Shown here piece by piece: positions 2,314 through 47,726 of a DNA stretch of 64,000 bases (positions within the stretch are counted from its first letter, which is position 1; the number at the start of each line of letters is the position of its first letter). The translations under genes and the position numbers were made by a program. Source of the DNA: Thermoplasmatota archaeon (GTDB taxonomy: Archaea; Thermoplasmatota; Penumbrarchaeia; JASLWR01); contig JASLWR010000006.1 in assembly GCA_030740765.1 (NCBI GenBank), forward strand, positions 1 through 64,000, read 5' to 3'. Under the pieces are notes generated by a model, which was not told the origin of the DNA, did no database searches, and worked only from the letters and a program-made list of their open reading frames with translations.

Positions 2314-2357
2314 TAGAATAGAGAACACAAATATAAATGTGGATAAAAGGGAATTTT

Positions 2358-2957
2358 ATGAATTATCGCTCATATAGTGAAAGGACGGCCCGGAGAACAA
2401 GACGAGCCAGGCTTAGCGATAAATCCGAAAACATAAAAAAAAGCGACATTCTGCAGCTGGACACGCGCAGGATGATCTATGAATTGATATTCAGTTCACC
2501 GGGACTAGACTTCAGGGAGATGGCGAGAAAGCTCGACATCAAGACAGGGGTTCTGGAATATCAACTGGACATTCTCGATAAACAGGAACTGATAGTCAAG
2601 AAAAAGGATGGATATTACACCAGATACTTTATTAGAGATAAAATAAGCCCTCAAGAAAAGAATATTATATCGTTACTCAGGTTGAAGATCCCGAGACATA
2701 TCGTTTTATTCCTGTACTTCAATAAATATTCCTGCAACAAGGAAATATTGAACGAGATCGAGATTCCCCCGTCAACTTTATCCTATTACCTAAGAAAATT
2801 GGTTCGAGTCGATATTTTGATTGATGAGGTCCGAGGGAGAAATACATATTATACTATCGAAAATCCCACGCTTGTGCTAAAGATACTGACTGCTTACAAA
2901 ACCAGTTTTTTCGATGAGATGACGGATAGACTGACAGAACTGTGGGACCGACTATGA
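2358..2957 (+). CDS. Tandem winged-helix transcriptional regulator
   Basis: Cytosolic DNA-binding protein of 199 residues with a basic N-terminal arm (RTARRTRRAR) and two consecutive winged-helix domains. The first (about residues 40-95) reads MIYELIFSSPGLDFREMARK then VLEYQLDILDKQELI; the second (about 105-165) includes STLSYYLRKLVRVDIL. This is the archaeal layout in which an L-x-Y-H/Q-L-x-x-L recognition helix is used twice, and the same pair forms the cytosolic end of the membrane protein at 45234-47726. The ATG at 2358 follows AAAGGGA by about six bases; the in-frame ATG at 2337 has no comparable site. Probably cotranscribed with the small membrane protein upstream. Target genes cannot be read from the sequence. 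Confidence 0.75.
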   Translation: MNYRSYSERTARRTRRARLSDKSENIKKSDILQLDTRRMIYELIFSSPGLDFREMARKLDIKTGVLEYQLDILDKQELIVKKKDGYYTRYFIRDKISPQEKNIISLLRLKIPRHIVLFLYFNKYSCNKEILNEIEIPPSTLSYYLRKLVRVDILIDEVRGRNTYYTIENPTLVLKILTAYKTSFFDEMTDRLTELWDRL

Positions 2958-32472: not shown

Positions 32473-33072
32473 TTGACAATAACACAACCGGTTTTAGACA
32501 TATTATTGATATTTCCCGGCTGGCTATCCACCATGATGATCGCCATGCTTCCCATTTTCGAGCTGAGGGGTTCTATCCCGGTAGCCATTGGGGTTTTTAA
32601 GTTACCGTGGTGGGAATCGTATATATATTCTGTTATCGGAAACATGGTTCCCGTTCCGTTCATACTGCTGTTATCAGATCCGGTGGTTCGTTTTTTCAGT
32701 CGTTTCAAATACAGTAAAAAGTTTTTTGACTATATCCTTGAGAAAACCCGGAAGAGAACGGGAAAGAAGATCGAACGCTACGAGTCACTGGCCCTGGTGC
32801 TTTTCGTGGCAATACCCCTACCAGTGACGGGTGCATGGACCGGCGCCATAGCCGCCTGGCTATTTGAAATTGAATTCAAAAAGGCAATGGCATGCGTATT
32901 TTTGGGGGTATTGATAGCGGGAGCCGTGGTGACCGCTGCATATCACTCGGCCCGATTTCTGCTGGATTACTCGATGCTGGGCTTTGTAGGAACAATCATA
33001 CTCCTGATAATTTTTTACATCGTATATCGGCTGTTGATCAAACGGAACAATGGTATGGACCACGACAAATAA
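32473..33072 (+). CDS. Small multidrug export-type membrane protein (COG2426)
   Basis: A 199-residue integral membrane protein of the Sm_multidrug_ex family (PF06695 / COG2426). The family pattern is P-x-F-E-L-R-G-S-I-P-x-A (MLPIFELRGSIPVAIGVFKL, about residues 25-45) followed by G-N-M-V-P-V-P-F and a second half with A-I-P-L-P-V-T-G-A-W-T-G-A. Four to five membrane helices are predicted, with a basic loop (KTRKRTGKKIERYE-like) between halves. Start TTG at 32473 with GGGTG seven to eight bases upstream. The family name implies export, but substrates are not established. It lies downstream of AMMECR1. Confidence 0.88.
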   Translation: MTITQPVLDILLIFPGWLSTMMIAMLPIFELRGSIPVAIGVFKLPWWESYIYSVIGNMVPVPFILLLSDPVVRFFSRFKYSKKFFDYILEKTRKRTGKKIERYESLALVLFVAIPLPVTGAWTGAIAAWLFEIEFKKAMACVFLGVLIAGAVVTAAYHSARFLLDYSMLGFVGTIILLIIFYIVYRLLIKRNNGMDHDK

Positions 33073-33121
33073 GCGACAATATCTTAATATAACGAATAAC
33101 TTTATTACGAATGGTGTTGAA

Positions 33122-36100
33122 ATGAAAAAAATTAATGAATTTCCATTAACCCGCTTAATGTCAGTGTTGACGATCTTTATTTTCATCTTTCCCGGTATCT
33201 CCTTTTTTTTTGACACATCGGCAATTGCGGAAAATAGGGCAGTACCACCACTACCTCTACAAAACCCCGCTGGAGCTGTATTGGACAATAACGAGTATTT
33301 TGAATGGGTCGAATACTCAATCCGGGATGGTGATGACGACGGGAAGAACGATAGGGTGAAAATAAGCTTTGGCGTGCTGACCGATGGAATAACCGAGCGA
33401 GTGCGGGTCAACATGACCGTAAGCAACAATACTGGAGATATTGTAAAAAGAGACATGATGGAATTCAATGCTCGTAGGCGTGGGGCGAACCTAACGGACA
33501 CCTACTTCGAATACAAGGTAGGGACCACAGGCATATATAATTTCAATCTCACCCTTTCCGATATCGCCCATGACAAGGTGGAAGATCACAGCAACCGGAC
33601 CAACGTGAGCCTGTATTTCAACAGCCGCAGGTACTCCCTGTCACTGTCGGCCATCGTGGACGACTTCAACGGTAACGGAACGGCAAACGACGTTCTCGTA
33701 ATTTGCACCGATAAGGAATCTCTTCCGGTATTGAACGCAAGTATTCTCATAGATGGAATGTTAGAGGGATTGACCGATGAAAGAGGAAAGATTTACATTT
33801 ATAACCTCTCAGGACAACACCACGAGGCAGATGCTTTCTATTCGATTTATCACGCGAATACGGATTTCGATATCTCGCAACCCAGACCGGCCATGTTACT
33901 GGTCGATCCGGAACCGATGGATTTTGACGGGGACAGCTATCACGATGACCTGCGCGTATATGCGACTCTCCCTGACTCAAGCCCTGCAATAGGAGCAATC
34001 GTACAGGTTGGAGGATCGTACGTTGGTCTCATTGGAGTGGAAGGATGGGCGCAGTTCGAGAACATCAGCCAGGGGGACTATAGTGTCCGTGTTTCATATC
34101 AATTACCCCGAACGGCGATAGTTTCATACTCGTATTTTTATGCGGAAGGACCCCTGATCACCGAGTATGATATGAATTTTTATAGCATTTATGCCAGGAT
34201 CACAAATGCGGACGGCGGCAGTTCGAATAACGATCTTGAGATATACTGTGATGTGGATATCAGCGACGATGTCACAGCACAGGTACATATTAACGCAACG
34301 GTTTTTAACCAATGGGCCGAAAAGACAGCCTTTGCCAACACGAGTTATATGGCGACTGGTTGGGAGTACGATGACCAATATATATATATTTACAATCTCT
34401 CGGAAGGGTATCACACGGTGCGGTGCGAGCTTTTCGATCACAACTGGACCCTTCGGGACGTTCGAACGCAGACGGATGTGACGGTCTATGGTAATGACAC
34501 GCCCATTAACGTCGACAAGATGGTAGACGATCTCGACGGCGGGGGTTCCATGAACGACGTATTGTTCTATGCGCACCTGAAGTACCAAGATGAGGTCAAT
34601 GCTACTATAAAGATATTTTTCAGTTCGAACGATACCGAATTCAATTCCACCTTAACCGATAAGTGGGGTATGTCATGGGTCGACAATCTACCCGAGGGAG
34701 AATATTATTTCGAGGCATATCGGGCTCAAGGAGAACTAGCTGATTTTGGCAATTTCACCATTTACAACCGCATTCTGCAGACCTTTCAGACAATGGAACA
34801 TCTCAGGGATCAATCCGGGGACGGATTCCACGATGATTTTGTCATCTATGCTTACGACGATCAGGGACGTCCGGATATCTTGACCCAGGTGACAATATAT
34901 GAGAAAGAGAGTGGTTATATTATTAGACAGGGATGGACCAGGGGAAATTTACTGGGACCGGGATATTTCATCGCCGAGAATCTTTATACTGGTGATTACG
35001 TGTTTACGGCAGTCCACGTAGGGCCAGTGTTCGAGAAGAACATCTCATCGGGATTAATTCATTCCTACCATGATTGGCATTACTACTACATGCCTCTATT
35101 CATGGATGTAGAGGTCTTTGACGGGAATAACTCGGGGTATCGGGATGACGTTTTAATAAAAGTTAACGATTCGGAAGGCCAACCAATGAATCGAACTTCC
35201 GTAAGTATATCGAATAACTATATGTTCGAAGAAAAACTTACAAATGAAAACGGTACCGTGATCTTTTACAATCTACCTGGTGGAAATTATCGAACGTATT
35301 CGGAGAATTATCGCAACGATCCACCCATGAGGGGCGAATCCACCTTTATTTCAAATGGACCCGTTGCCATCAGATTCGGTTATTTCATTGATTATATTCG
35401 CTGTGGTGATGAAGATTTCCGGAGAAACGATATTTCAATAGCAGGCCGCGTTTATTCAAGCGCAGACGGCTGGGAGAACATCACCGTGCTTATGAACATG
35501 ACATATGAATCCAACGGAACGGTTCATTCTTTTGAAAATCGCACGTTTCTGGGTGATGGTTACAATTGGATGGTGTACAACCTTAAAGACGTTGGTTATG
35601 AGGAATATTCGATATCACTGATTCTTCTGGATGGCAATCACAGTCAAATAGCGATAATGAATTTTACAAATATAGTGGTATACGAGGCAAAACCGATACT
35701 GAATACTTACGCAATATTAATGGATGCCAAATGGCTATACCTTAGGGCCGCGTATGCCGGTGAAACCTTCTTCCAGTCCACGTTCGAGTTATACAATTCA
35801 ACAGGTCTCGTGAATCGTACCAGGAATGTCGAACGACAATATTTCGGAGATCTATATCCTGACGATTATCGATGGAACATAACAGAAGAATCCCTTAACC
35901 TGACCGATCACGGTGAGTTGTTGATCGATGGCAATTACACCTTTTCTTCTTATTTGCGAGATTATGATTTTGATGGTTACTATGATGATTTTTATTTGTC
36001 CATCAGGTACACGAATCGCACACGGGTAGATAACGCCGAAGTAAGGGTATACGATGCAAACGGCTTACTCCTTACCACTGGAAACACTTCCGGGGGTTTC

Positions 36101-39100
36101 GAACTTCTCAATCTATCCATGGGAAACTATACCTATATACTTACTCATAATCAGAAAACCCTTATGAGTGGCAGGTTCTATTCATACACAAACGGCTACC
36201 CGAACAAACCGCCAAGCGCCAACATTTCCCATCCCCGGAACGGAAGCACCTATCTCGTGGGCAATAACATATACTTCGATGCAGGGAATTCCACCGACAT
36301 GGATATGAATGATTCGATCTACTATACCTGGATCTCCGACGTGGACGGCCTCATGTCACACCGGGAGAACTTTAACACCAGTATTTTATCGATTGGAGTA
36401 CACAATATAACCCTCCACTGCGACGACGGCCACGATAACAATGTTTCCACTTCGATTATCGTACGCGTACTGCCTCTCAACAAACTTCCGCTGGCCGATG
36501 CCGGTCCTGACAAAAATTCTTATATTAATGAAGCTGTGGATTTCCTTGGCAGCGCCAGCGATCCCGACGGTGTCCTCGTACGGTTCGAATGGGATTTCGA
36601 GGGGGATGCGATATATGATTGGAGCAGTGACAAGAACGGCCCAGTAAACCACAGCTATGATTCACCCGGATTATATCGAGCGCGGTTCAGGGTAACTGAC
36701 GACAGGGGTGGTTTGGCAGTAGATAGCTGCAATGTGAGCATCATTTACAGTAACCGTCCACCTATGGCCGATGCCGGTGACAATAGATCGTTATTTACCG
36801 GGGAAAAATGTGTTCTTGACGGTACTAGCTCATACGATCCGGACGAAATATACGGCGATCAAATAGTGGCATTCAACTGGAGCTGCATAACCCATACGAT
36901 TGACCTGCAAGAGGAAAATTCCTCAGAACCGTATTTCTATCCTGGGGAGTCCGGTATTTATGAGTTCACCTTAACGGTGCTGGACTCTAACGGCCAGTGG
37001 TCCCAAGAGCTTGATAGAGTGTGGATCACCGTGGAGAACCGGATCAATTCAGCTCCTGTGGCTGAAGCGGGTTCACCCCGATCCAGTTTCATAGGTGATA
37101 TATTCATTCTTGACGGGAGCGGCAGTTTTGATCCCGACCCGGAAGGCTATATCGAAGCATATGAATGGAAATGCACTAACCACAGTGATATAGACCTTGC
37201 TAACGCCAGCAGCGCCAGGGCCGAGTTCACACCTGGAGAGGAAGGAATATACACATTCTCCCTGAGGGTGAAAGATAACAGGGAGGACTGGAGTGAATTC
37301 GATTTTGTGAATATCTCAGTAAGTGAGATAATAATTCCGAATTCAGCTCCTCGCGCAGTAGTTAGCCCTGTACAAGCTGCAAGAGTATTTGAACCAGTTA
37401 CCTTCTCGGCCGCAGGTAGTTTTGATCCCGACGACGACACGAACGGGAACGGGAAGATCGACGGGAGCGAGAAAGATAAGTTACAGTATCAATGGGATGT
37501 GGACGGAGACGGCAAGACGGATACCACTGGGAGAACGACAACGTACGTGTACAACTCCCCGGGAACCTTCATAGTAAATCTGACAGTCACCGATCCGGAA
37601 GGTCTCTCAGATGGCGAGGAATTCTCAATCGTGGTCAAACCCGAGAATCATCCCCCCGAAGCGAGTATTGACCAGGGTGGAAAAATTGTATTCAATCTTG
37701 ATACACAAAAAATTCTCTCGGCCTATTCCACCTATGATCCGCAGGAGGATAAGGACGAAAATGGAAAACTCTCGGCAGAGGAAATAATGGGGCTTAATTT
37801 CTTCTGGGACGCGGACATGAACCGGGACAGCGATGGGAACGGGATAAAAGACGATGATACGGACTGGACCGGTGTTGAATTTTCCCTGGATTATTCGGAG
37901 TACGGAACTTACGTCGTAGGCCTAAAAGTGCTTGACCATGAAGGATTGAGCGATGTGGATTCCCAGGAGATAGTGATCAATTCACCTCCATTGGACCTAG
38001 AGATATCCTTTTCTGCATCGACGAATATATACTACAAGGATCAGCCCTTGACATTCCAGGGCAGCTGTCACGACCCTGACGGAACGGACCGATATCTGAA
38101 ATTCATATGGGATATGGATTCCAACGGGGTGCCCGACATATACGGTGAAAGCGTGGAATTCTACTATGAAGAAGATGGCAGGAAGGTCGTCACTCTCACG
38201 GTGGAGGATCGTTACGGGGCCAGCGAAAAAATAACTGCAAGCATCGAGATACTCCCTCCCATCGAGACCATGGTGGAGACCCCTGAGATAATATCCCCGC
38301 GGGGTGGAAAGATTACGGGAACCGCCATCACGGTGGAGGCTTCGGTGGAGGATGATAGGATTCTCTGGCTGGAAGCGAGTATAACAGGTGAGAAATGGAA
38401 GAAGATGAGACGCCAATCCGGTGGAAACCTTTGGAAATACGATTTTGACATGGGATCCTCCAGAGTTATCAACATCTATGTGAGGGGAGTATTGAAAGAT
38501 TTCTCGGGAAGGACGGTTTATACCGATAGGGTATCTGTGACCGTTCGATTGGAGGACGAAGGGGAAGGGACGGACGAGAAGAATGAAAAGATTTGGGAAA
38601 AATACGATATCGAGTTGGGATTTGTAGCCGCCGTCCTGATACTTTTTATTGTATTGCTGCTGGTGGTGAGGGCTAGGAGGGCACCGGATTATTCTCGCAT
38701 GATAAAGGACATCTACAGTGAAAAGGCAAAACGAAGGAAGGCGGGAGAAACAAAACGAGAAAGGGAAACTTCTCAAGAGGCCGAGGACGAGGATGGATTT
38801 ACCGAGGTGGACGCTGAAGTTCTCGAAGAAGAGGAAGATACGGAGATGGCGATCGAGGATGGGGATGAAGAATACATGGAAAGGATGATCGAAGAATTGA
38901 AAGCCGGCGACATGATCCTCTCCCATTCGGGCACAAAAAGAACCGTGATCTCGGTTAATGGGCCGGAAATGCATGTAACAAGAACAATGAAGGACGGGAC
39001 CACCAAAAAGGAGAGAGCGAATAAATTGATGCTTCAGCTTCGCAGCGATGCCATCTCGGATATTATACTGGCGGAAGAGGGAGTGGAAAAGGAAGAATTG

Positions 39101-39316
39101 GAGGACGAAGAAGACGATATTGAGGAAATCGTGGAATCATTTGAAATTGATATAGTCTGTCCCCGATGTGAAAGTCTCTTTCCCGCGGTGAGTGAAGGTA
39201 AATGGCCCCTGGTTATTGACTGCCCGGAATGCGGAGCCAAGGGACGCATCATCGAGAAAATGATGGGGGATATTGTCAATGGTGAAAATCTCGATAACCC
39301 CTGCGGGCTCATCTGA
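33122..39316 (+). CDS. Giant surface protein with repeated D-D motifs, PKD domains and cytosolic zinc ribbon
   Basis: A 2064-residue exported protein, the largest here. A signal peptide (about residues 1-36) is followed by about ten beta modules of 90-110 residues, each starting with a calcium-loop-like motif (DFNGNGTANDVLV, DFDGDSYHDDLRV, DLDGGGSMNDVLF, DQSGDGFHDDFVI, DYDFDGYYDDFYL). Residues about 1020-1720 hold PKD-type domains (GSASDPDGVLVRFEWDF, FDPDDDTNGNGKIDG). After a membrane helix at about 1832-1852 come an acidic coiled stretch and a C-terminal zinc ribbon (CPRCESLFP, CPECGAKG, about 2020-2045). The D-x-N-G-x-G-x-x-N-D motifs probably bind calcium. The ATG at 33122 has GGTG five bases upstream. 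The outside-repeats and inside-ribbon layout suggests a receptor or an anchored assembly protein. Confidence 0.82.
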   Translation: MKKINEFPLTRLMSVLTIFIFIFPGISFFFDTSAIAENRAVPPLPLQNPAGAVLDNNEYFEWVEYSIRDGDDDGKNDRVKISFGVLTDGITERVRVNMTVSNNTGDIVKRDMMEFNARRRGANLTDTYFEYKVGTTGIYNFNLTLSDIAHDKVEDHSNRTNVSLYFNSRRYSLSLSAIVDDFNGNGTANDVLVICTDKESLPVLNASILIDGMLEGLTDERGKIYIYNLSGQHHEADAFYSIYHANTDFDISQPRPAMLLVDPEPMDFDGDSYHDDLRVYATLPDSSPAIGAIVQVGGSYVGLIGVEGWAQFENISQGDYSVRVSYQLPRTAIVSYSYFYAEGPLITEYDMNFYSIYARITNADGGSSNNDLEIYCDVDISDDVTAQVHINATVFNQWAEKTAFANTSYMATGWEYDDQYIYIYNLSEGYHTVRCELFDHNWTLRDVRTQTDVTVYGNDTPINVDKMVDDLDGGGSMNDVLFYAHLKYQDEVNATIKIFFSSNDTEFNSTLTDKWGMSWVDNLPEGEYYFEAYRAQGELADFGNFTIYNRILQTFQTMEHLRDQSGDGFHDDFVIYAYDDQGRPDILTQVTIYEKESGYIIRQGWTRGNLLGPGYFIAENLYTGDYVFTAVHVGPVFEKNISSGLIHSYHDWHYYYMPLFMDVEVFDGNNSGYRDDVLIKVNDSEGQPMNRTSVSISNNYMFEEKLTNENGTVIFYNLPGGNYRTYSENYRNDPPMRGESTFISNGPVAIRFGYFIDYIRCGDEDFRRNDISIAGRVYSSADGWENITVLMNMTYESNGTVHSFENRTFLGDGYNWMVYNLKDVGYEEYSISLILLDGNHSQIAIMNFTNIVVYEAKPILNTYAILMDAKWLYLRAAYAGETFFQSTFELYNSTGLVNRTRNVERQYFGDLYPDDYRWNITEESLNLTDHGELLIDGNYTFSSYLRDYDFDGYYDDFYLSIRYTNRTRVDNAEVRVYDANGLLLTTGNTSGGFELLNLSMGNYTYILTHNQKTLMSGRFYSYTNGYPNKPPSANISHPRNGSTYLVGNNIYFDAGNSTDMDMNDSIYYTWISDVDGLMSHRENFNTSILSIGVHNITLHCDDGHDNNVSTSIIVRVLPLNKLPLADAGPDKNSYINEAVDFLGSASDPDGVLVRFEWDFEGDAIYDWSSDKNGPVNHSYDSPGLYRARFRVTDDRGGLAVDSCNVSIIYSNRPPMADAGDNRSLFTGEKCVLDGTSSYDPDEIYGDQIVAFNWSCITHTIDLQEENSSEPYFYPGESGIYEFTLTVLDSNGQWSQELDRVWITVENRINSAPVAEAGSPRSSFIGDIFILDGSGSFDPDPEGYIEAYEWKCTNHSDIDLANASSARAEFTPGEEGIYTFSLRVKDNREDWSEFDFVNISVSEIIIPNSAPRAVVSPVQAARVFEPVTFSAAGSFDPDDDTNGNGKIDGSEKDKLQYQWDVDGDGKTDTTGRTTTYVYNSPGTFIVNLTVTDPEGLSDGEEFSIVVKPENHPPEASIDQGGKIVFNLDTQKILSAYSTYDPQEDKDENGKLSAEEIMGLNFFWDADMNRDSDGNGIKDDDTDWTGVEFSLDYSEYGTYVVGLKVLDHEGLSDVDSQEIVINSPPLDLEISFSASTNIYYKDQPLTFQGSCHDPDGTDRYLKFIWDMDSNGVPDIYGESVEFYYEEDGRKVVTLTVEDRYGASEKITASIEILPPIETMVETPEIISPRGGKITGTAITVEASVEDDRILWLEASITGEKWKKMRRQSGGNLWKYDFDMGSSRVINIYVRGVLKDFSGRTVYTDRVSVTVRLEDEGEGTDEKNEKIWEKYDIELGFVAAVLILFIVLLLVVRARRAPDYSRMIKDIYSEKAKRRKAGETKRERETSQEAEDEDGFTEVDAEVLEEEEDTEMAIEDGDEEYMERMIEELKAGDMILSHSGTKRTVISVNGPEMHVTRTMKDGTTKKERANKLMLQLRSDAISDIILAEEGVEKEELEDEEDDIEEIVESFEIDIVCPRCESLFPAVSEGKWPLVIDCPECGAKGRIIEKMMGDIVNGENLDNPCGLI

Positions 39317-40200: not shown

Positions 40201-43200
40201 ATGAAAGGAAGGACGATAATGGTTTTTCTTGTTATTATATTACTGACGGTTCCCTTCGAATTGAATTTTTTTCTCACGGGAGAAAAAGCGGATATACGGA
40301 GCGGCGAGCACGAGTATCCGGATGGCAATTATTTCTCAGGTGATCGGGACAATGAGGCAGTAACCTTCACAAAGGTCACTGATGAAGCTGGTCTCTCGGG
40401 AAAGAGCTCCAATCACTTTGCGTGGGGAGATTATAACAACGACGGCTATCAGGACCTTTTAATGGGTTCGAAGCTATACAGGAACAATGGGGCCCCCGGT
40501 TGGAACTTCACCGACGTGACCTCGGCAGCAGGAATTAGCGGCGGGGGGAACGGTGTCTGGGCGGATTACGATAACGATGGTGACCTGGATTTCTATACAT
40601 CGGGTAATAAGTTATGGAAGAACAACGGGGCCCCAGGGTACAACTTCACAGACGAGACCTATGCAGCAGGGAATCTCACCACGCCAGACCCCACAATGGC
40701 TGCCGGATGGGGGGACTTCGATCGGGACGGGGACGTTGACCTGTACGTGGTAAACGGCGAAAGATACAATGACGGTGACCCAGCGTTCTATGCCGACATT
40801 TTTTTCAGTAACAACGGGGACGGAACCTTTACAGACCGAACTGTACAGACGGGATTGGACACTACTAACAAAAAAGCCTACGGGCGAAGCGTGAACTGGG
40901 GTGACTACAACAACGATGGCTGGATAGATATACATGTGGGTAATTACCGTCTTTGTCCCAATTATCTCTGGCGAAATGATCGTGACGGGACCTTCACAGA
41001 TGTGGCAGCAGAGACCAATACGACGGGAGATTATGATGACGACCGTTACTTTGACCAACAAGCGAAAGATACCTATGGGGATGGAACCTGGGGGCCTACC
41101 TACGGCCATACAATAGGTTCGGCCTGGGGCGACCTTGACAACGATGGTGATCTGGATCTTTGGGATTCGAATCTCGTTCATAAATACGTGGGACCCACCA
41201 ATTGGCCCAACATGCCCTATGATATTCGCGGGTACGTGTGCGACGACTCCAAGGTCTATCGGAACAGCGGTGCTCCCGGGTTCGATTTCACGGACATGCG
41301 GCCAAGCTCCGGGATAGCATACATGCCAATAGGCGGTCAAGGCAAGTACGCTGGAGACGAGTTGTGGTCAGGAGTTGCCATGGGAGATTACGACAATGAC
41401 GGTGATCTCGACGTGTTCGTCCCACAGATATACGATCTGAGTTATGCCCCTTCTCTTCTTTACAGAAATAATGACGATGGAACATTCACTCAGGTCGCTA
41501 ACGCACTGGGGTTGGAATCCTTCAATCATTACGGCGGAAGCTGGTGCGATTACGATAACGACGGCGATCTGGACCTGATCTCCGGAGGAAAAAAGCCGTT
41601 TTCCGATGGTACTTACGAAGCTCATCTTTTCAGAAACAACGGTAATTCCAATCATTATCTCCACGTGGATCTGGTGGGAACCGAAAATAATAAAATCGGA
41701 TTGGGGGCCCGTGTCAAGATCACTTCGGAAGGAGAGAGCCAGATACGGGAGGTGGAGGGAGGAATGGGCAGCCACGGCCATCAGAATTCCATTACGGTAG
41801 AGTTCGGACTTGGCTCGAAAGCAACCATTGATGAGGTGGAAGTCACCTGGCCCGATGGAAAGACGCAGTTGATACGAAATCCCGCAATAGACCAAACCCT
41901 TGAAATTACCGAGAGCGATAAGGCCCCGTCCATAACGGGCGTGACCGTGTCAGAGACCGACGTGGATGAGGATGAGAAAATAACATTCGGCGGGTCTGCA
42001 ACCGACCCTGATGGCACCATTTCGAAGTATGAATGGGATTTCGAGGGGGACGGGGTTTATGATTACAGTTCACCAAACTCGGCTACAGTCCAGCACGGTT
42101 ATCCAAAGCACGGTGAATATTTCGCAAAACTTCGTGTATGGGACAATACGGGCTTGCTGGGTGACGCGGAAAGCACTATTTATATCAGTGTGAATAACCT
42201 TCTGCCGGTGGCGCAAATTGCAGGAGATACCGTGGGAATCGAGGAACAAAGTTTCCATTTTACCGGTGCGGACAGTTCAGATACGGCCAATGACCTTGGA
42301 AACCTCTCATATTACCTGAATTTCGGAGACGGGAATGACACCGGTTGGGTGAATTTTACCGAGTATGATCACATTTATCCCGATATGGGTAGTTACACAG
42401 TGCGGCTCATAGTAAAGGACGATGAAGGAGAAACATCCAGTGACACCCTCAGGGTGACCGTTAAGAACATGGTCCCCGCCCCACAAATATTTGGCATTGA
42501 GGAAGGAGTGGAGGATACCGCCATCACCTTCAATGCCTCCTGTAACGATACTCTGGGCGACCTGGATCTCATAAAATATGCATGGGATTTCGGTGATGAC
42601 GACGATACTGATTTCAGTGATGAAAATACCACGTCCCACACGTACATCGAGAGTGGTATATATACAGTAACCCTCCGTGTAAAAGACAGGCACAATACGA
42701 TAAATTCAACGACGCATATCCTGAATATTTCCAATGTTCTACCTAGGTGCACTTCTCTTGAAAAAATGGTGGGCGACGAGGACGAGCCCGTTTCGTTCTA
42801 CGGCGATGGTTTCGATACGCCATCGGATGCAGACACTCTCCAGTACCAATGGGATTTCGGTGATGGAACAAGATCGATATGGTTGGATACATCTCTCATA
42901 AACCATATTTATACTCAGGCAGGAAACTACACGGCGGTATTGACGGTGGAGGACGACGATGGGGATACCGGCCAATGCTATGTGAACGTTAGTATCCGAA
43001 ATATCATTCCATCGCTGGATCTTAAAATATCAACCGATAACATATACGAAGACGATATTGTGAAATTCACCGGATCGGGAGGGGACTCCGACTCGGATGA
43101 AGACGACCTTTTATTCAGAATAAATTTCGGCGATGGAAATGAAACAGGGTGGCAAAGCGAGGTGGATTTCACTCACTCCTATAACTTTTCGGGACAATAC

Positions 43201-44499
43201 GATGTAATAATGGAAATAATGGATAACAGCAACGATACCACCCAGGTGTCAAGGCAAATAGTCGTGATAAACATGGCTCCCACGGCTTCTTTCGGCCACT
43301 CGCCAAAAAGGGACCTGGATGAGATGACGGTAATAAACTTCGACGCCAGCGCCAGCATGGATACGCTATCGGACAGGGGCAGACTGAATTACACGTGGAA
43401 AATGGGTGCCAGGAAGACATTGTACGGTAAAAAGGTTGCCAATACGTTCCTTTCTTCCGGTAAACAGGTAGTAAAACTTACCGTTCGAGATGATGACGGC
43501 CATACCGGTTCTACAAGCCAGACCCTAACGATAGAGAACATTGATCCGGTGGCCCTGATCGATCATTTATCAAGTAAGGTAAAGGTCGGGGAGTCGGTAG
43601 AATTCGACGCAAGCGGTTCCACCGACACGCCTGGAGACATGGAAGGGTTGGAGTATGAGTGGAGGATAGGTTCCCTGAAGAAGTACGGGATGAAGATCCA
43701 GCATAGCTTCGACACCCCCAATACCTACAAGGTATACCTAACCGTGACCGATGAAGACGGTGGTTTCGATGAAAATTACGTGATAATCACTGTTACCGAC
43801 GATTCTACCGAGAAACCCAATGAATCGGGTGGATCGACTTCCTGGATCATAGTTGGCGTGATAATAATAATCATTTTGGTGGCTAGCGCCCTGGTTATGA
43901 TCCTCCTGAGAAAGAAAAAGAAACCGGAGACCGAGCCGACCTTGCCGGACGAGGATATGAATTTTGCATATCAGGGAGAGGAGAACGCGGAACCACCTGC
44001 CGTTCCTTCGATACCGCTGACAGATGAGGCAATACCGACGCAGGCGGCAGCTCCGATCTGCACCGGTTGCGGCCAATCATCCGAATACTACCCGGTGTAT
44101 GATTGTTACTGGTGTGAACCATGCCAGGAATACGTATATCCCGTGGAATCGTCCGAGGTCGCGGTGAACGAAGACTCTCTCTGGAATCCGTCCCCGGTTA
44201 CCTTGCCTGGGGCACAGGAGAAACTCCCGGTTACCTCGATGGGTGGGGCAACGGAACCTCTCAAAGCACTTCCTGAGCCCCGGTTGGATAGCTTGGACGG
44301 ACTCGATCCGGACGTAGACGAAGAGGTCAAAGAGGAGTCCGAAGTCCAAAACAAGCAGGAAGATGTGATTGATACAACTGAGAATGAAAAAATTCCGGTG
44401 CCGCAGCAGGATGAAAAGCCCGTGGGGGAAGCACCCGCTAAAATTATCAGGAAAAAAGTGGTACGGAAAGTGGTGAAAAAGAATATGAATTCTCAGTGA
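40201..44499 (+). CDS. Giant surface protein with FG-GAP/VCBS, ASPIC/UnbV and PKD domains
   Basis: A 1432-residue membrane-anchored exported protein. After a signal peptide (about residues 1-26), residues about 60-460 carry FG-GAP/VCBS repeats forming a beta-propeller, each with D-x-D-x-D-G-D-x-D calcium loops (DYDNDGDLDFYTSG, DLDNDGDLDLWDS). An ASPIC/UnbV domain (about 495-570, IGLGARVKITSEGESQIREV) follows, then about seven PKD-like domains (DFGDGNDTG, YAWDFGDDDDTD). The membrane helix is at about 1216-1240. The cytosolic tail has two C-x2-C pairs (CTGCGQ, CYWCEPCQEY) and ends in a basic stretch (KIIRKKVVRKVVKK). A TATA-like box near 40174-40181 puts transcription start close to the ATG. 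Integrin-like propellers suggest adhesion or polymer binding. Confidence 0.85.
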   Translation: MKGRTIMVFLVIILLTVPFELNFFLTGEKADIRSGEHEYPDGNYFSGDRDNEAVTFTKVTDEAGLSGKSSNHFAWGDYNNDGYQDLLMGSKLYRNNGAPGWNFTDVTSAAGISGGGNGVWADYDNDGDLDFYTSGNKLWKNNGAPGYNFTDETYAAGNLTTPDPTMAAGWGDFDRDGDVDLYVVNGERYNDGDPAFYADIFFSNNGDGTFTDRTVQTGLDTTNKKAYGRSVNWGDYNNDGWIDIHVGNYRLCPNYLWRNDRDGTFTDVAAETNTTGDYDDDRYFDQQAKDTYGDGTWGPTYGHTIGSAWGDLDNDGDLDLWDSNLVHKYVGPTNWPNMPYDIRGYVCDDSKVYRNSGAPGFDFTDMRPSSGIAYMPIGGQGKYAGDELWSGVAMGDYDNDGDLDVFVPQIYDLSYAPSLLYRNNDDGTFTQVANALGLESFNHYGGSWCDYDNDGDLDLISGGKKPFSDGTYEAHLFRNNGNSNHYLHVDLVGTENNKIGLGARVKITSEGESQIREVEGGMGSHGHQNSITVEFGLGSKATIDEVEVTWPDGKTQLIRNPAIDQTLEITESDKAPSITGVTVSETDVDEDEKITFGGSATDPDGTISKYEWDFEGDGVYDYSSPNSATVQHGYPKHGEYFAKLRVWDNTGLLGDAESTIYISVNNLLPVAQIAGDTVGIEEQSFHFTGADSSDTANDLGNLSYYLNFGDGNDTGWVNFTEYDHIYPDMGSYTVRLIVKDDEGETSSDTLRVTVKNMVPAPQIFGIEEGVEDTAITFNASCNDTLGDLDLIKYAWDFGDDDDTDFSDENTTSHTYIESGIYTVTLRVKDRHNTINSTTHILNISNVLPRCTSLEKMVGDEDEPVSFYGDGFDTPSDADTLQYQWDFGDGTRSIWLDTSLINHIYTQAGNYTAVLTVEDDDGDTGQCYVNVSIRNIIPSLDLKISTDNIYEDDIVKFTGSGGDSDSDEDDLLFRINFGDGNETGWQSEVDFTHSYNFSGQYDVIMEIMDNSNDTTQVSRQIVVINMAPTASFGHSPKRDLDEMTVINFDASASMDTLSDRGRLNYTWKMGARKTLYGKKVANTFLSSGKQVVKLTVRDDDGHTGSTSQTLTIENIDPVALIDHLSSKVKVGESVEFDASGSTDTPGDMEGLEYEWRIGSLKKYGMKIQHSFDTPNTYKVYLTVTDEDGGFDENYVIITVTDDSTEKPNESGGSTSWIIVGVIIIIILVASALVMILLRKKKKPETEPTLPDEDMNFAYQGEENAEPPAVPSIPLTDEAIPTQAAAPICTGCGQSSEYYPVYDCYWCEPCQEYVYPVESSEVAVNEDSLWNPSPVTLPGAQEKLPVTSMGGATEPLKALPEPRLDSLDGLDPDVDEEVKEESEVQNKQEDVIDTTENEKIPVPQQDEKPVGEAPAKIIRKKVVRKVVKKNMNSQ

Positions 44500-44809: not shown

Positions 44810-44941
44810 CTATCTCTTATAGATCGTATAAAGACAGTGTGAACATCTCCAGATCTCGAAGATGTCCTCGCCCCGAGAGAAGGGCAATAAAGATCCCTCC
44901 TCGCACTTCGGACATGGCGGGAAAATCGTATTCAAAGCCAT
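44810..44941 (-). CDS. Tiny zinc-ribbon protein, 43 residues
   Basis: A 43-residue protein that is nearly all zinc ribbon: MALNTIFPPCPKCEEGSLLP, then EIWRCSHCLYTIYKR, giving two C-x2-C knuckles 22 residues apart. A longer open frame extends upstream, but the ATG at 44941 has a strong GGAGGTG site seven bases before it and the upstream part reads poorly. It is divergent from the membrane-bound winged-helix regulator at 45234 with a shared promoter region, so the two may be functionally linked. Confidence 0.6.
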   Translation of the reverse strand: MALNTIFPPCPKCEEGSLLPFSRGEDIFEIWRCSHCLYTIYKR

Positions 44942-45108: not shown

Positions 45109-45122
45109 ATGTTGTACAACAT
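45109..45122. promoter_or_regulatory. 14-base perfect palindrome next to TATA box
   Basis: ATGTTGTACAACAT is a perfect palindrome that overlaps the start of a TATA-like tract (ATATTTTATATA, 45121-45132) about 105 bases before the regulator gene at 45234. It is a good candidate operator for a dimeric regulator, possibly the regulator itself. Confidence 0.5.
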
Positions 45123-45233
45123 ATTTTATATAGGAGTAAGGATAATATTAAATTATACACATCGGAACTTCATTATAAGTAGGAATCAAATTAAAATCAA
45201 TGGTTTCGACATATAGAAAAACAGAGTGATAAA

Positions 45234-47726
45234 ATGATACGCGAGGAGCGAAAGGTGTTATTCTCTATTGCCGTCATAATGGCAATGGGGTTGGTTCTGA
45301 TCCTCCTGTTTCAATCCTCACTCTGGAGTGATGAGAATATCAATAATTACGCCGCGCAACCCGAAGCCCCTGAAGCGGGTATCAGATCTGAAAACTACTC
45401 ATTTTCCATATCCTTAAATGAAACAGAACACGTACTTTATCTCGAACCCGGGCTTGTAAAGGAGATGGAGCTTGAGATCACCAATACGGGCGAGGAGAAT
45501 GATTCCTATACGGTGAGTGCGTCACCCGTTGAAGAACCTTGGCCTTATTTGATATCCCATTCACGCTCACCCTCACTAGCCCCTCATGAGGATTTTTTGA
45601 TAAAATTGAACGTAACGGCCCCTAATGACCTATTTTTATATCCCCGAGAATACGTATTCGAAATCAAGACAGCTTCAGTGAACCAGACCGAAATAACGAA
45701 CAATATCACTTTGCTTCTTATTCTCACATCCATCGATATTGATATGGAGATAGGATTGCGCGACGAGAATGGCGATGAAGTATCCGATATGGAAATTGAC
45801 GGTAACCGAAACGAACTATTATTCCTGTCCCTTGTCAATAGTGGCAATGTTTTTGATGAATATGAGGTTTCCATCTCTGGCTTGTCCCAAGGTTGGAGTG
45901 CATATTTCAGAACCGGAACTCAAAGTATTTTGGTAGAGCTTGGACCGGGGAACGTCAGATCGTCAGTTCAGGAGTTGATTGTAGTAAGCTGCAACAGAAA
46001 TTCGACCGAGAGCAGTCATCTGGTGATATTGGCCAATTCCACGGCCCCCGTGACAGGACAACCCATTTCCAAGACCATCACGGTAAGCCTGGAAAAAAGA
46101 ACGCGAGAGATTCCCGTGATACTCGAATCCGAAATTAAATACCTGCTCGTCGACCCCGGGGAAGAGGTCGAGATTCCCGTGACCGCTACAAACTTCGGGT
46201 CCAATGGCATCGCCTTCAAACCCTTGGTGAACGGAAGCCTCCCTCAATGGATCAAGATCATGGACAATCCGGCGACCCACGACGTGATCCAAGGGCAATC
46301 AAGTGCCGAATATCTCTTCAAATTCTCAATCGGAAAGGATACGCTAGCCAACTCCGAGCACATCATCGGTTTCACCGGGACCTGCAGAGAAGATTACGGT
46401 CGGGTATTCGATATCTGGGTTCATCTGAAGGTTCGACAAGTATTCAACCTCACGGCCACCATCGATACAAGCTCGGTACAATTGGATGAAGGAGAGGCAG
46501 AGCAGATCGTTATTACACTCCATAACAACGGGAACGGCGAGGAAGACGTCGATATATATCGGGAATGGAACGATTCGCTATGGGTAAACACCAGTTACAA
46601 CCGGGTCGTTCTTGCACCATTCGAGACGAAGAACGCAACATTTAATATCTCCGTCCGGGACACTGAAAAAGCCTCTTCCGACGAATATAGCCTTACACTG
46701 GTATCATCCAGGAATACAATAATTTTCAAAATCAATATTACGGTAGTAAAAGATGTACCAAACCACCTCCCCGATCTTGCGATCAAGGAAGAAGAATCGA
46801 GCATATCATATAACGGACATACGTCCAATGGATTCGCTTTCCTCAACTTTGCCGTGGTCAATCTTGGGAATGACGATAGTGGTTATTTCACTATAAGCGT
46901 GCGGACAATTAACAAACTGGGTAGTATCTCCCAGACTCTTCTGAACAGGCGGGAGGACAATCTGGCACCCCACGATACACTTTATTTTTCCATACCGATC
47001 ACACCCAAGCAGGCCGATCTTAAGGTAACGGTTGAACTGGACGATGGTCACGAGGTGGAGGAAACCAACGAGACCAACAACCTTCTCACGATCAATATTT
47101 ACCCGAACAACAGTGACAGCGAGCCAAATTACGCTGTTTCGCCCGAAGAAGGTTTTATTCCCTCACCGATATATATTACCGGAGGTGGGATTATATTCCT
47201 CGTGATAGTCCTTACCGTCATATACGGTCTTGGAACCGAATCCACCAAATACTCCATGTTATCTGTATTCGTACCCCTGTATTCCAAAATGATGAGAGAG
47301 GATATTCTATCACACGCCACTCGTGAAAAGGTCTATCACTTTGTGAAGAACCATCCCGGAGAGCACTACCGCTCCATACTCGAAAGTCTGGAGCTGAAGA
47401 ACGGCACCCTCAGTTACCACTTGAAGACCCTTGAAAAACGGGAGTTCATAGTATCCAAGAAAGATGGACCGTACAGGCGATTCTATCTACACGGCTCTCC
47501 GTCAAAGCAGAAGGTCTATATTAACGGGCTTCGAAAGAAATTATACGATTTTATTTTAAAAAATCCCGGGCTCAGCCAAAAAGAGATCGCAAAGATGATG
47601 AAATGTACGTCCCCCACCGTTAACTATCACGTCAACAATATGGTCAACCAGGGACTGGTGGATATAACCAGGAAAGGCAGGGAAACCCACTGCTTTGCCA
47701 TCAATTCCCAGAACCTGCAGCAATGA
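45234..47726 (+). CDS. Membrane-spanning sensor with cytosolic tandem winged-helix domains
   Basis: An 830-residue protein that seems to join outside and inside directly. Residues about 11-30 are an N-terminal signal or anchor helix (IAVIMAMGLVLILLFQSS). Residues about 50-630 are extracellular beta domains of the NEW3 / CARDB type, with a clear CARDB unit at about 512-625 (LPDLAIKEEE to ETNETNNLLTINIYP). One membrane helix lies at about 645-668 (GGGIIFLVIVLTVIYGL). The cytosolic end holds two winged-helix domains, about 690-745 (GTLSYHLKTLEKREFIVSKK) and 760-825 (PTVNYHVNNMVNQGLVDITR). No kinase or receiver domain is present, so a ligand or envelope signal may be passed straight to DNA. It starts at ATG 45234 behind a weak GTGAT site. 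Confidence 0.85.
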   Translation: MIREERKVLFSIAVIMAMGLVLILLFQSSLWSDENINNYAAQPEAPEAGIRSENYSFSISLNETEHVLYLEPGLVKEMELEITNTGEENDSYTVSASPVEEPWPYLISHSRSPSLAPHEDFLIKLNVTAPNDLFLYPREYVFEIKTASVNQTEITNNITLLLILTSIDIDMEIGLRDENGDEVSDMEIDGNRNELLFLSLVNSGNVFDEYEVSISGLSQGWSAYFRTGTQSILVELGPGNVRSSVQELIVVSCNRNSTESSHLVILANSTAPVTGQPISKTITVSLEKRTREIPVILESEIKYLLVDPGEEVEIPVTATNFGSNGIAFKPLVNGSLPQWIKIMDNPATHDVIQGQSSAEYLFKFSIGKDTLANSEHIIGFTGTCREDYGRVFDIWVHLKVRQVFNLTATIDTSSVQLDEGEAEQIVITLHNNGNGEEDVDIYREWNDSLWVNTSYNRVVLAPFETKNATFNISVRDTEKASSDEYSLTLVSSRNTIIFKINITVVKDVPNHLPDLAIKEEESSISYNGHTSNGFAFLNFAVVNLGNDDSGYFTISVRTINKLGSISQTLLNRREDNLAPHDTLYFSIPITPKQADLKVTVELDDGHEVEETNETNNLLTINIYPNNSDSEPNYAVSPEEGFIPSPIYITGGGIIFLVIVLTVIYGLGTESTKYSMLSVFVPLYSKMMREDILSHATREKVYHFVKNHPGEHYRSILESLELKNGTLSYHLKTLEKREFIVSKKDGPYRRFYLHGSPSKQKVYINGLRKKLYDFILKNPGLSQKEIAKMMKCTSPTVNYHVNNMVNQGLVDITRKGRETHCFAINSQNLQQ

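Follow-up and report, generated by a model that had tools for sequence, protein, structure and literature searches.

A predicted transmembrane transcription regulator with a tandem winged-helix tail, and its paralogous family, in an uncultured Thermoplasmatota archaeon

Introduction

Can a single protein carry information from the surface of an archaeal cell to its genes? Archaeal outside-to-gene signalling is poorly charted, and the question is raised by one gene within a 64-kb stretch of DNA (here called the window) from an uncultured Thermoplasmatota archaeon. An earlier note on this DNA read the gene product as a one-protein route from membrane to DNA and compared it with ToxR and CadC of bacteria. 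In those proteins, an OmpR-type winged helix lies in the cytosol at the N terminus and a periplasmic or extracellular sensor forms the C terminus.

For archaea, a census has counted about 4 (+/-2) transmembrane transcription regulators (TTRs) per genome, most of them single pass and about 57% without a recognisable domain beyond the DNA-binding one (Demey et al., 2023; PMC10269533); neither 'Thermoplasm-' nor 'tandem' occurs in the main text of that census. ArnR of Sulfolobus acidocaldarius has an N-terminal HTH, a putative HAMP and sensor domain and two C-terminal transmembrane (TM) helices (PMC6396743). In the open literature, that is, apart from subscription papers, we found no account of a Thermoplasmatota family of membrane winged-helix regulators. 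Here we argue that the window protein is probably (at a likelihood of roughly 0.7) a transmembrane one-component transcription regulator, with its ectodomain outside the cell and paired winged helices, coupled to it through the TM helix, on DNA.

Results

The 830-aa chain runs from a signal or anchor helix through a beta-sandwich ectodomain of about 600 residues, a TM helix and an amphipathic juxtamembrane helix to two winged helices (Table 1). Both winged-helix domains of the earlier reading are recovered by Pfam, HTH_HVO_0163_N (PF24266) matching at residues 695-753 (E 1e-13) and HTH_24 at residues 764-809 (E 4e-14). The PF24266 score of 51.4 bits, against a curated cut-off of 31, places the protein in the HVO_0163 winged-helix family. 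No kinase, histidine kinase, receiver or OmpR-type domain is found in the chain by Pfam, in line with the claim that kinase and receiver are lacking, and the protein is thus not of the two-component type. Of the CARDB/NEW3 domains that the earlier note assigned to the outside, CARDB is confirmed by Pfam (2e-7), but NEW3 has no Pfam match in the chain; in the model the outer part is a series of beta-sandwiches. The single membrane helix also stands only in part: because hydropathy reveals two segments (residues 8-26 and 648-666), the count of one is correct solely if the signal is cleaved.

Table 1. Positions of the features in the 64-kb window
Feature	Position	Strand	Evidence
Predicted transmembrane transcription regulator, 830 aa	45234-47726	+	ATG ORF, Pfam, hydropathy, structure models, full-length orthologues
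Hydrophobic helix at the N terminus, residues 8-26, preceded by a basic n-region; signal peptide or signal anchor	45255-45311	+	Hydropathy peak 2.99
Ectodomain of successive beta-sandwiches, residues 31-645, with 17 N-glycosylation sequons	45324-47168	+	Sequons, acidic charge, modelled strands
CARDB domain, residues 513-619	46770-47090	+	Pfam PF07705, E 2e-7
TM helix, residues 647-667, unconserved among orthologues	47172-47234	+	Hydropathy, alignment
Juxtamembrane amphipathic helix with PLYSK motif, residues 668-690	47235-47303	+	Alignment, structure model
Winged helix 1, HVO_0163_N type, residues 691-753	47304-47492	+	Pfam, alignment, structure model
Winged helix 2, HTH_24/MarR-like, residues 760-820	47511-47693	+	Pfam, alignment, structure model
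Palindrome ATGTTGTACAACAT, 14 bp, perfect, overlapping the conserved promoter box	45109-45122	.	Sequence search, shuffles
Promoter element TGTACAACATATTTTATATA, box TGTACWAYA and TATA box at fixed spacing	45113-45132	+	Orthologue promoter comparison
Divergent zinc-ribbon gene, 43 aa, four Cys as two CxxC	44810-44941	-	ATG start 44941, GGAGGTG ribosome site, 40-44 aa relatives
Soluble tandem winged-helix paralogue, 206 aa, ATG ORF	2337-2957	+	Pfam, tree
Surface protein (FG-GAP/PKD)	40201-44499		
Surface protein (PKD-like)	33050-39316		
Protein of 780 aa, initial winged-helix-like segment	58774-61116		By eye

The ectodomain is acidic and contains 17 N-x-S/T sequons; the tail of 159 residues is basic and has 1. 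This contrast recurs in the 8 other membrane paralogues tested, though weakly in L022 (2 vs 0 sequons). Such a bias of sequons and charge is the signature expected of a protein whose large part would lie outside and whose winged helices would lie inside; by this pattern the C terminus is predicted on the inner side, and the claim of an outer sensor and an inner DNA-binding end is upheld. An AF2 model of the cytosolic part, built with 42 relatives, agrees with the predicted pair: it contains two complete canonical winged helices, each with three helices and a wing (block pLDDT 91-98), as well as an isolated helix (residues 669-691) between the membrane and winged helix 1, while the mutual placement of the winged helices is without confidence (pTM 0.53). 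With the tandem pair as query, Foldseek returned winged-helix proteins of a generic sort, among them SelB, Pol III subunits and regulators of the ArsR and MarR types, and some that are non-regulatory (ScpB, ESCRT-II). A sequence search of the PDB with the pair returned only 5duk, a putative DNA-binding protein (2e-9), and one weak match to a fatty acid biosynthesis regulator. The full-length model, based on 8 alignment rows, is weak (mean pLDDT 62), and its Foldseek matches are low-TM chains of Ig-like domains, uninformative beyond that.

Seven orthologues from family f4 (L073-L077, L079 and L084; genera g4-g7) were aligned with the window protein over their available length. Identity is 13-20% in the ectodomain (about 17%), 21-24% in CARDB and 0-10% in the TM helix; it amounts to 30-39% in the juxtamembrane helix, reaches 51-56% in winged helix 1, the highest value of all parts, and is 30-34% in winged helix 2. 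As the winged helices lie far above the ectodomain, the DNA-binding end is much more constrained than the sensor. Between TM helix and winged helix lie either 3-9 or 20-27 residues, two classes whose proportions are biased since the set was drawn with a profile from paralogues of the protein's own genome; the window protein, with its PLYSK motif, belongs to the long class.

In each of their genomes the f4 orthologues adjoin a 225-aa protein and an HMGL-type (homocitrate/isopropylmalate) synthase, a conserved neighbourhood that is absent at the window gene. The suggested link with neighbouring surface proteins is therefore not borne out, and synteny with the window neighbours was rejected. The 225-aa protein (L077:2443-3123, with equivalents in L073-L079 and L084) is convergent with the orthologue and has no Pfam match. 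Two surface proteins of the window, FG-GAP/PKD and PKD-like, have cytosolic tails with zinc-ribbon-like cysteine pairs, which indicates that surface proteins of this lineage differ in the part that faces the cytosol. After its initial segment, the 780-aa protein further downstream seems, by eye, to continue as a STAND/TPR-like body.

The tiny divergent zinc-ribbon gene noted at the promoter is real, but its extent had to be corrected: a GTG start from 45082 was rejected in favour of the ATG with its ribosome site, and the resulting length agrees with that of its relatives. The protein is present in 19 of 244 genomes of the phylum, and relatives are 49-79% identical. In the window and in 7/7 f4 genomes with a match, its gene and a tandem winged-helix gene are linked; in those seven genomes the latter is of the soluble kind and the two are arranged tail-to-tail. 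Within 1.5 kb flanks no such link is found in f3, f9, f10, f19, f23 or f29, and a second copy in the protein's own genome is likewise unlinked. An obligate partnership across the phylum is thus unsupported, and the association of the zinc-ribbon gene with tandem winged-helix genes is uncertain. The soluble version of the DNA-binding half, which the earlier note had placed at 2358-2957, is such a version only loosely. In the tree the product of the full ORF joins the 187-aa L025 (100/99), and this pair joins the window protein (95/95); the branches are long, and it is therefore a paralogue of its own soluble lineage and not a recent duplicate.

The window gene is one of many. Its genome (3.59 Mb, 158 contigs, 94% complete) contains about two dozen tandem winged-helix genes, and at least 10 membrane proteins follow the plan of sensor, TM helix and winged helix, with differing ectodomains (CARDB, PKD, beta-helix, WD40, carboxypeptidase-regulatory-like). 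Besides the window protein these include L021 (580 aa), L022 (618 aa), L023 (307 aa; CarboxypepD_reg-like, slightly under the curated cut-off), L024 (1074 aa; beta-helix, PKD and TSP3), L027 (1132 aa; DUF2341, PKD and TSP3), L028 (416 aa; PKD and TSP3), L031 (875 aa; WD40 and TSP3-like repeats), L035 (509 aa; TSP3-like) and L037 (615 aa; beta-helix), the last being the sole one among the ten with only one winged helix. In L031 (L031:3473-6100) the WD40 beta-propeller forms the N-terminal, predicted extracellular part, and the tandem winged helix lies at the other end. Relatives are found in 12/12 genomes of the class and in 131/244 genomes of the phylum at E <= 1e-20, many of them in open frames of 500-2600 aa; those with names come from uncultured Candidatus Thermoplasmatota and Methanomassiliicoccales MAGs. 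The PF24266 winged helix is also present in control genomes (Methanocaldococcus, Haloferax and Methanosarcina). The one-protein route of the earlier note is therefore retained, but not as a lone case, the gene being one of ten paralogues and of a phylum-wide class.

Small soluble tandem winged-helix proteins are plentiful. One soluble protein of 365 aa (L033:2522-3619) has two tandem pairs, that is, four successive winged helices. In a 266-aa protein (L026:2543-3343, contig G000:C111) a receiver domain is fused to the same tandem module, and two HATPase genes are located on that contig. This fusion indicates that the module also acts as a response-regulator output and supports a regulatory output role; DNA-binding response regulators were reportedly very rare in archaea in a 2018 census. 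HATPase_c matches in the genome total 8, some of them 630-670 aa long and by length likely of topoisomerase or MutL type, so that the membrane winged-helix regulators are at least as numerous as histidine kinases.

The 14-base palindrome seen at the promoter by the earlier note is present but by itself unremarkable, since perfect palindromes of at least 14 bp number 4 in the window against 1-8 in shuffles. A genome search for the exact 14-mer gives this site alone, with one further copy at one mismatch, and the palindrome was rejected as a regulon signature. What gives the position its interest is that it coincides with a box, TGTACWAYA, which in every readable orthologue promoter lies directly upstream of a TATA box at the same spacing: TGTACAACAT-AT-TTTATATA in the window, TGTACTACAT-GC-TTTAAATA in L077, TGTACTACAT-CA-TTTAAATA in L075 and L076, TGTACTATAT-CA-TTTAAATA in L079 and TGTACTATAC-CT-TTTATATA in L074. 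In the orthologues the symmetry of the palindrome is inexact, and the remaining upstream DNA is without obvious conservation. The f4 translation start follows about 42 bases after the start of the box, a spacing consistent with leaderless transcripts; the leader of the window gene is longer. In L075 and L076 (genus g5) a second box-like sequence, TGTACAACCTATATAATCAA, is found some 100 bp further upstream than the first and agrees with the window element at 15/20 positions.

In nine genomes of the class the strict element, at zero mismatch, is found only at the promoters of the regulator and its orthologues; the pattern was derived from these promoters and matches them by construction, so that the news lies in the absence of other matches. 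A relaxed pattern found, blind, the end of contig G006:C69, where an ORF runs off the contig and overlaps, by 20 identical bases, the end of another contig, where the truncated G006 orthologue starts. The box had thus found a promoter unused in building the pattern, although that of G004, from the same genus, was used. Among 340,118 background positions (class loci, orthologue loci included), the window 20-mer was matched at >=16/20 only at orthologue promoters. Other matches of the relaxed pattern are confined to single lineages and were not taken as targets, and the element searches in the class genomes yielded no regulon beyond the regulator's own gene.

That the strict element is confined to one promoter per genome suggests either autoregulation or a regulon of very few genes, and we infer from this that the TGTACWAYA box is a candidate operator of the regulator itself. 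It is possible, although we favour it less, that the protein is a regulator and the box serves a different transcription factor, for example a soluble paralogue, or is a specialised core-promoter element. The box abuts the TATA box at the position of a BRE, and the imperfect palindrome of the orthologues would also fit such a role; a general core element should however not be restricted to these promoters in the searched genomes, and the box has been kept where the other upstream DNA has no obvious conservation.

Discussion

In this study, we revisited a gene thought to encode a complete route from the cell surface to DNA. By the definition used in the TTR census (PMC10269533) the window protein is a TTR, as a predicted DNA-binding domain and a predicted TM region occur in the same chain, and transcription regulation from the membrane is predicted for it. 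It shares with other TTRs this combination and the single pass; in its genome, however, about 10 regulators are of one paralogous kind with long, varied and recognisable ectodomains. ArnR and ArnR1 (PMC6396743) are likewise one-component regulators of archaea that sit in the membrane and bind promoters from there, as is proposed for the window protein. It does not have the ArnR architecture: a large N-terminal ectodomain, a single TM helix and, at the C terminus, a pair of winged helices from a different family are predicted here. With HVO_0163 proteins (PF24266) and the soluble archaeal tandem winged-helix proteins it has the family of winged helix 1 and the tandem arrangement in common, whereas many members of that class are small and soluble and have neither TM helix nor ectodomain. 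The comparison with ToxR and CadC holds only as an analogy, in that one kinase-free protein reaches from the outside to DNA. Membership was rejected, because the sensor is N-terminal and the winged helices are C-terminal and, by Pfam, ArsR/MarR/HVO_0163-like rather than OmpR-type.

According to the model that we favour, the N-terminal beta-sandwich/CARDB ectodomain would receive a signal outside the cell or be loaded by an outside partner. The TM helix, the amphipathic juxtamembrane helix and winged helix 1 would in turn couple outside to inside, so that a conformational change or clustering of the ectodomain may alter the hold of the paired winged helices on DNA at the inner face of the membrane. 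The tail would bind the TGTACWAYA box upstream of the TATA box, resulting in autoregulation, and the regulator would act while membrane-bound and not after cleavage. DNA binding by the winged helices, the ligand and the targets are putative in this model, and it has to be considered that some winged-helix folds serve protein-protein roles and that the PDB matches of the pair are generic.

The main mechanistic rival is regulated intramembrane proteolysis, in which a site-2 or similar protease would free the tandem winged helix as a soluble regulator in the manner of Notch or SREBP. M50 (site-2 protease) genes occur in the genome, two of them clear and one weaker, the abundance of soluble tandem proteins indicates that the module works without a membrane, and an unconserved TM sequence could be that of a loose protease substrate. 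However, M50 genes are present in 14/14 control genomes, which gives their presence little weight, no cleavage motif was identified in the regulator, and a conserved juxtamembrane helix of set length fits mechanical coupling better than a disposable linker; we therefore consider release by proteolysis improbable. Even less probable is a structural or DNA-tethering tail that anchors a surface protein to the chromosome or to another protein without any transcription switch, an idea in keeping with ectodomains that resemble ordinary surface or adhesion modules (PKD, beta-helix, TSP3) and with the non-regulatory fold matches, but at odds with the receiver fusion and the many small soluble forms of the module, with winged helix 1, wing included, as the most conserved part, and with a conserved specific box at the promoter.

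The reading of the window protein as a transmembrane regulator is well supported, and its membership in a family is of more interest than the single case. Transmembrane regulators as such are known, and the winged helix is in Pfam (PF24266); new is a phylum-wide family, undescribed in the open literature, with a candidate operator. The variety of outer parts on one DNA-binding end suggests a single-protein relay of outside signals to genes in these archaea. More tentatively, the Thermoplasmatota may possess a receptor superfamily in which a shared tandem winged-helix reader is combined, across one TM helix, with interchangeable surface-protein ectodomains (such as CARDB, PKD, beta-helix and WD40 propeller); these receptors would pass contact or surface state straight to promoters, partly in place of histidine kinases, and each member may mainly control its own gene. 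With a large paralogous family, readable ectodomains and a candidate operator for the window member, the reach of a membrane-held factor to its promoter becomes directly testable.
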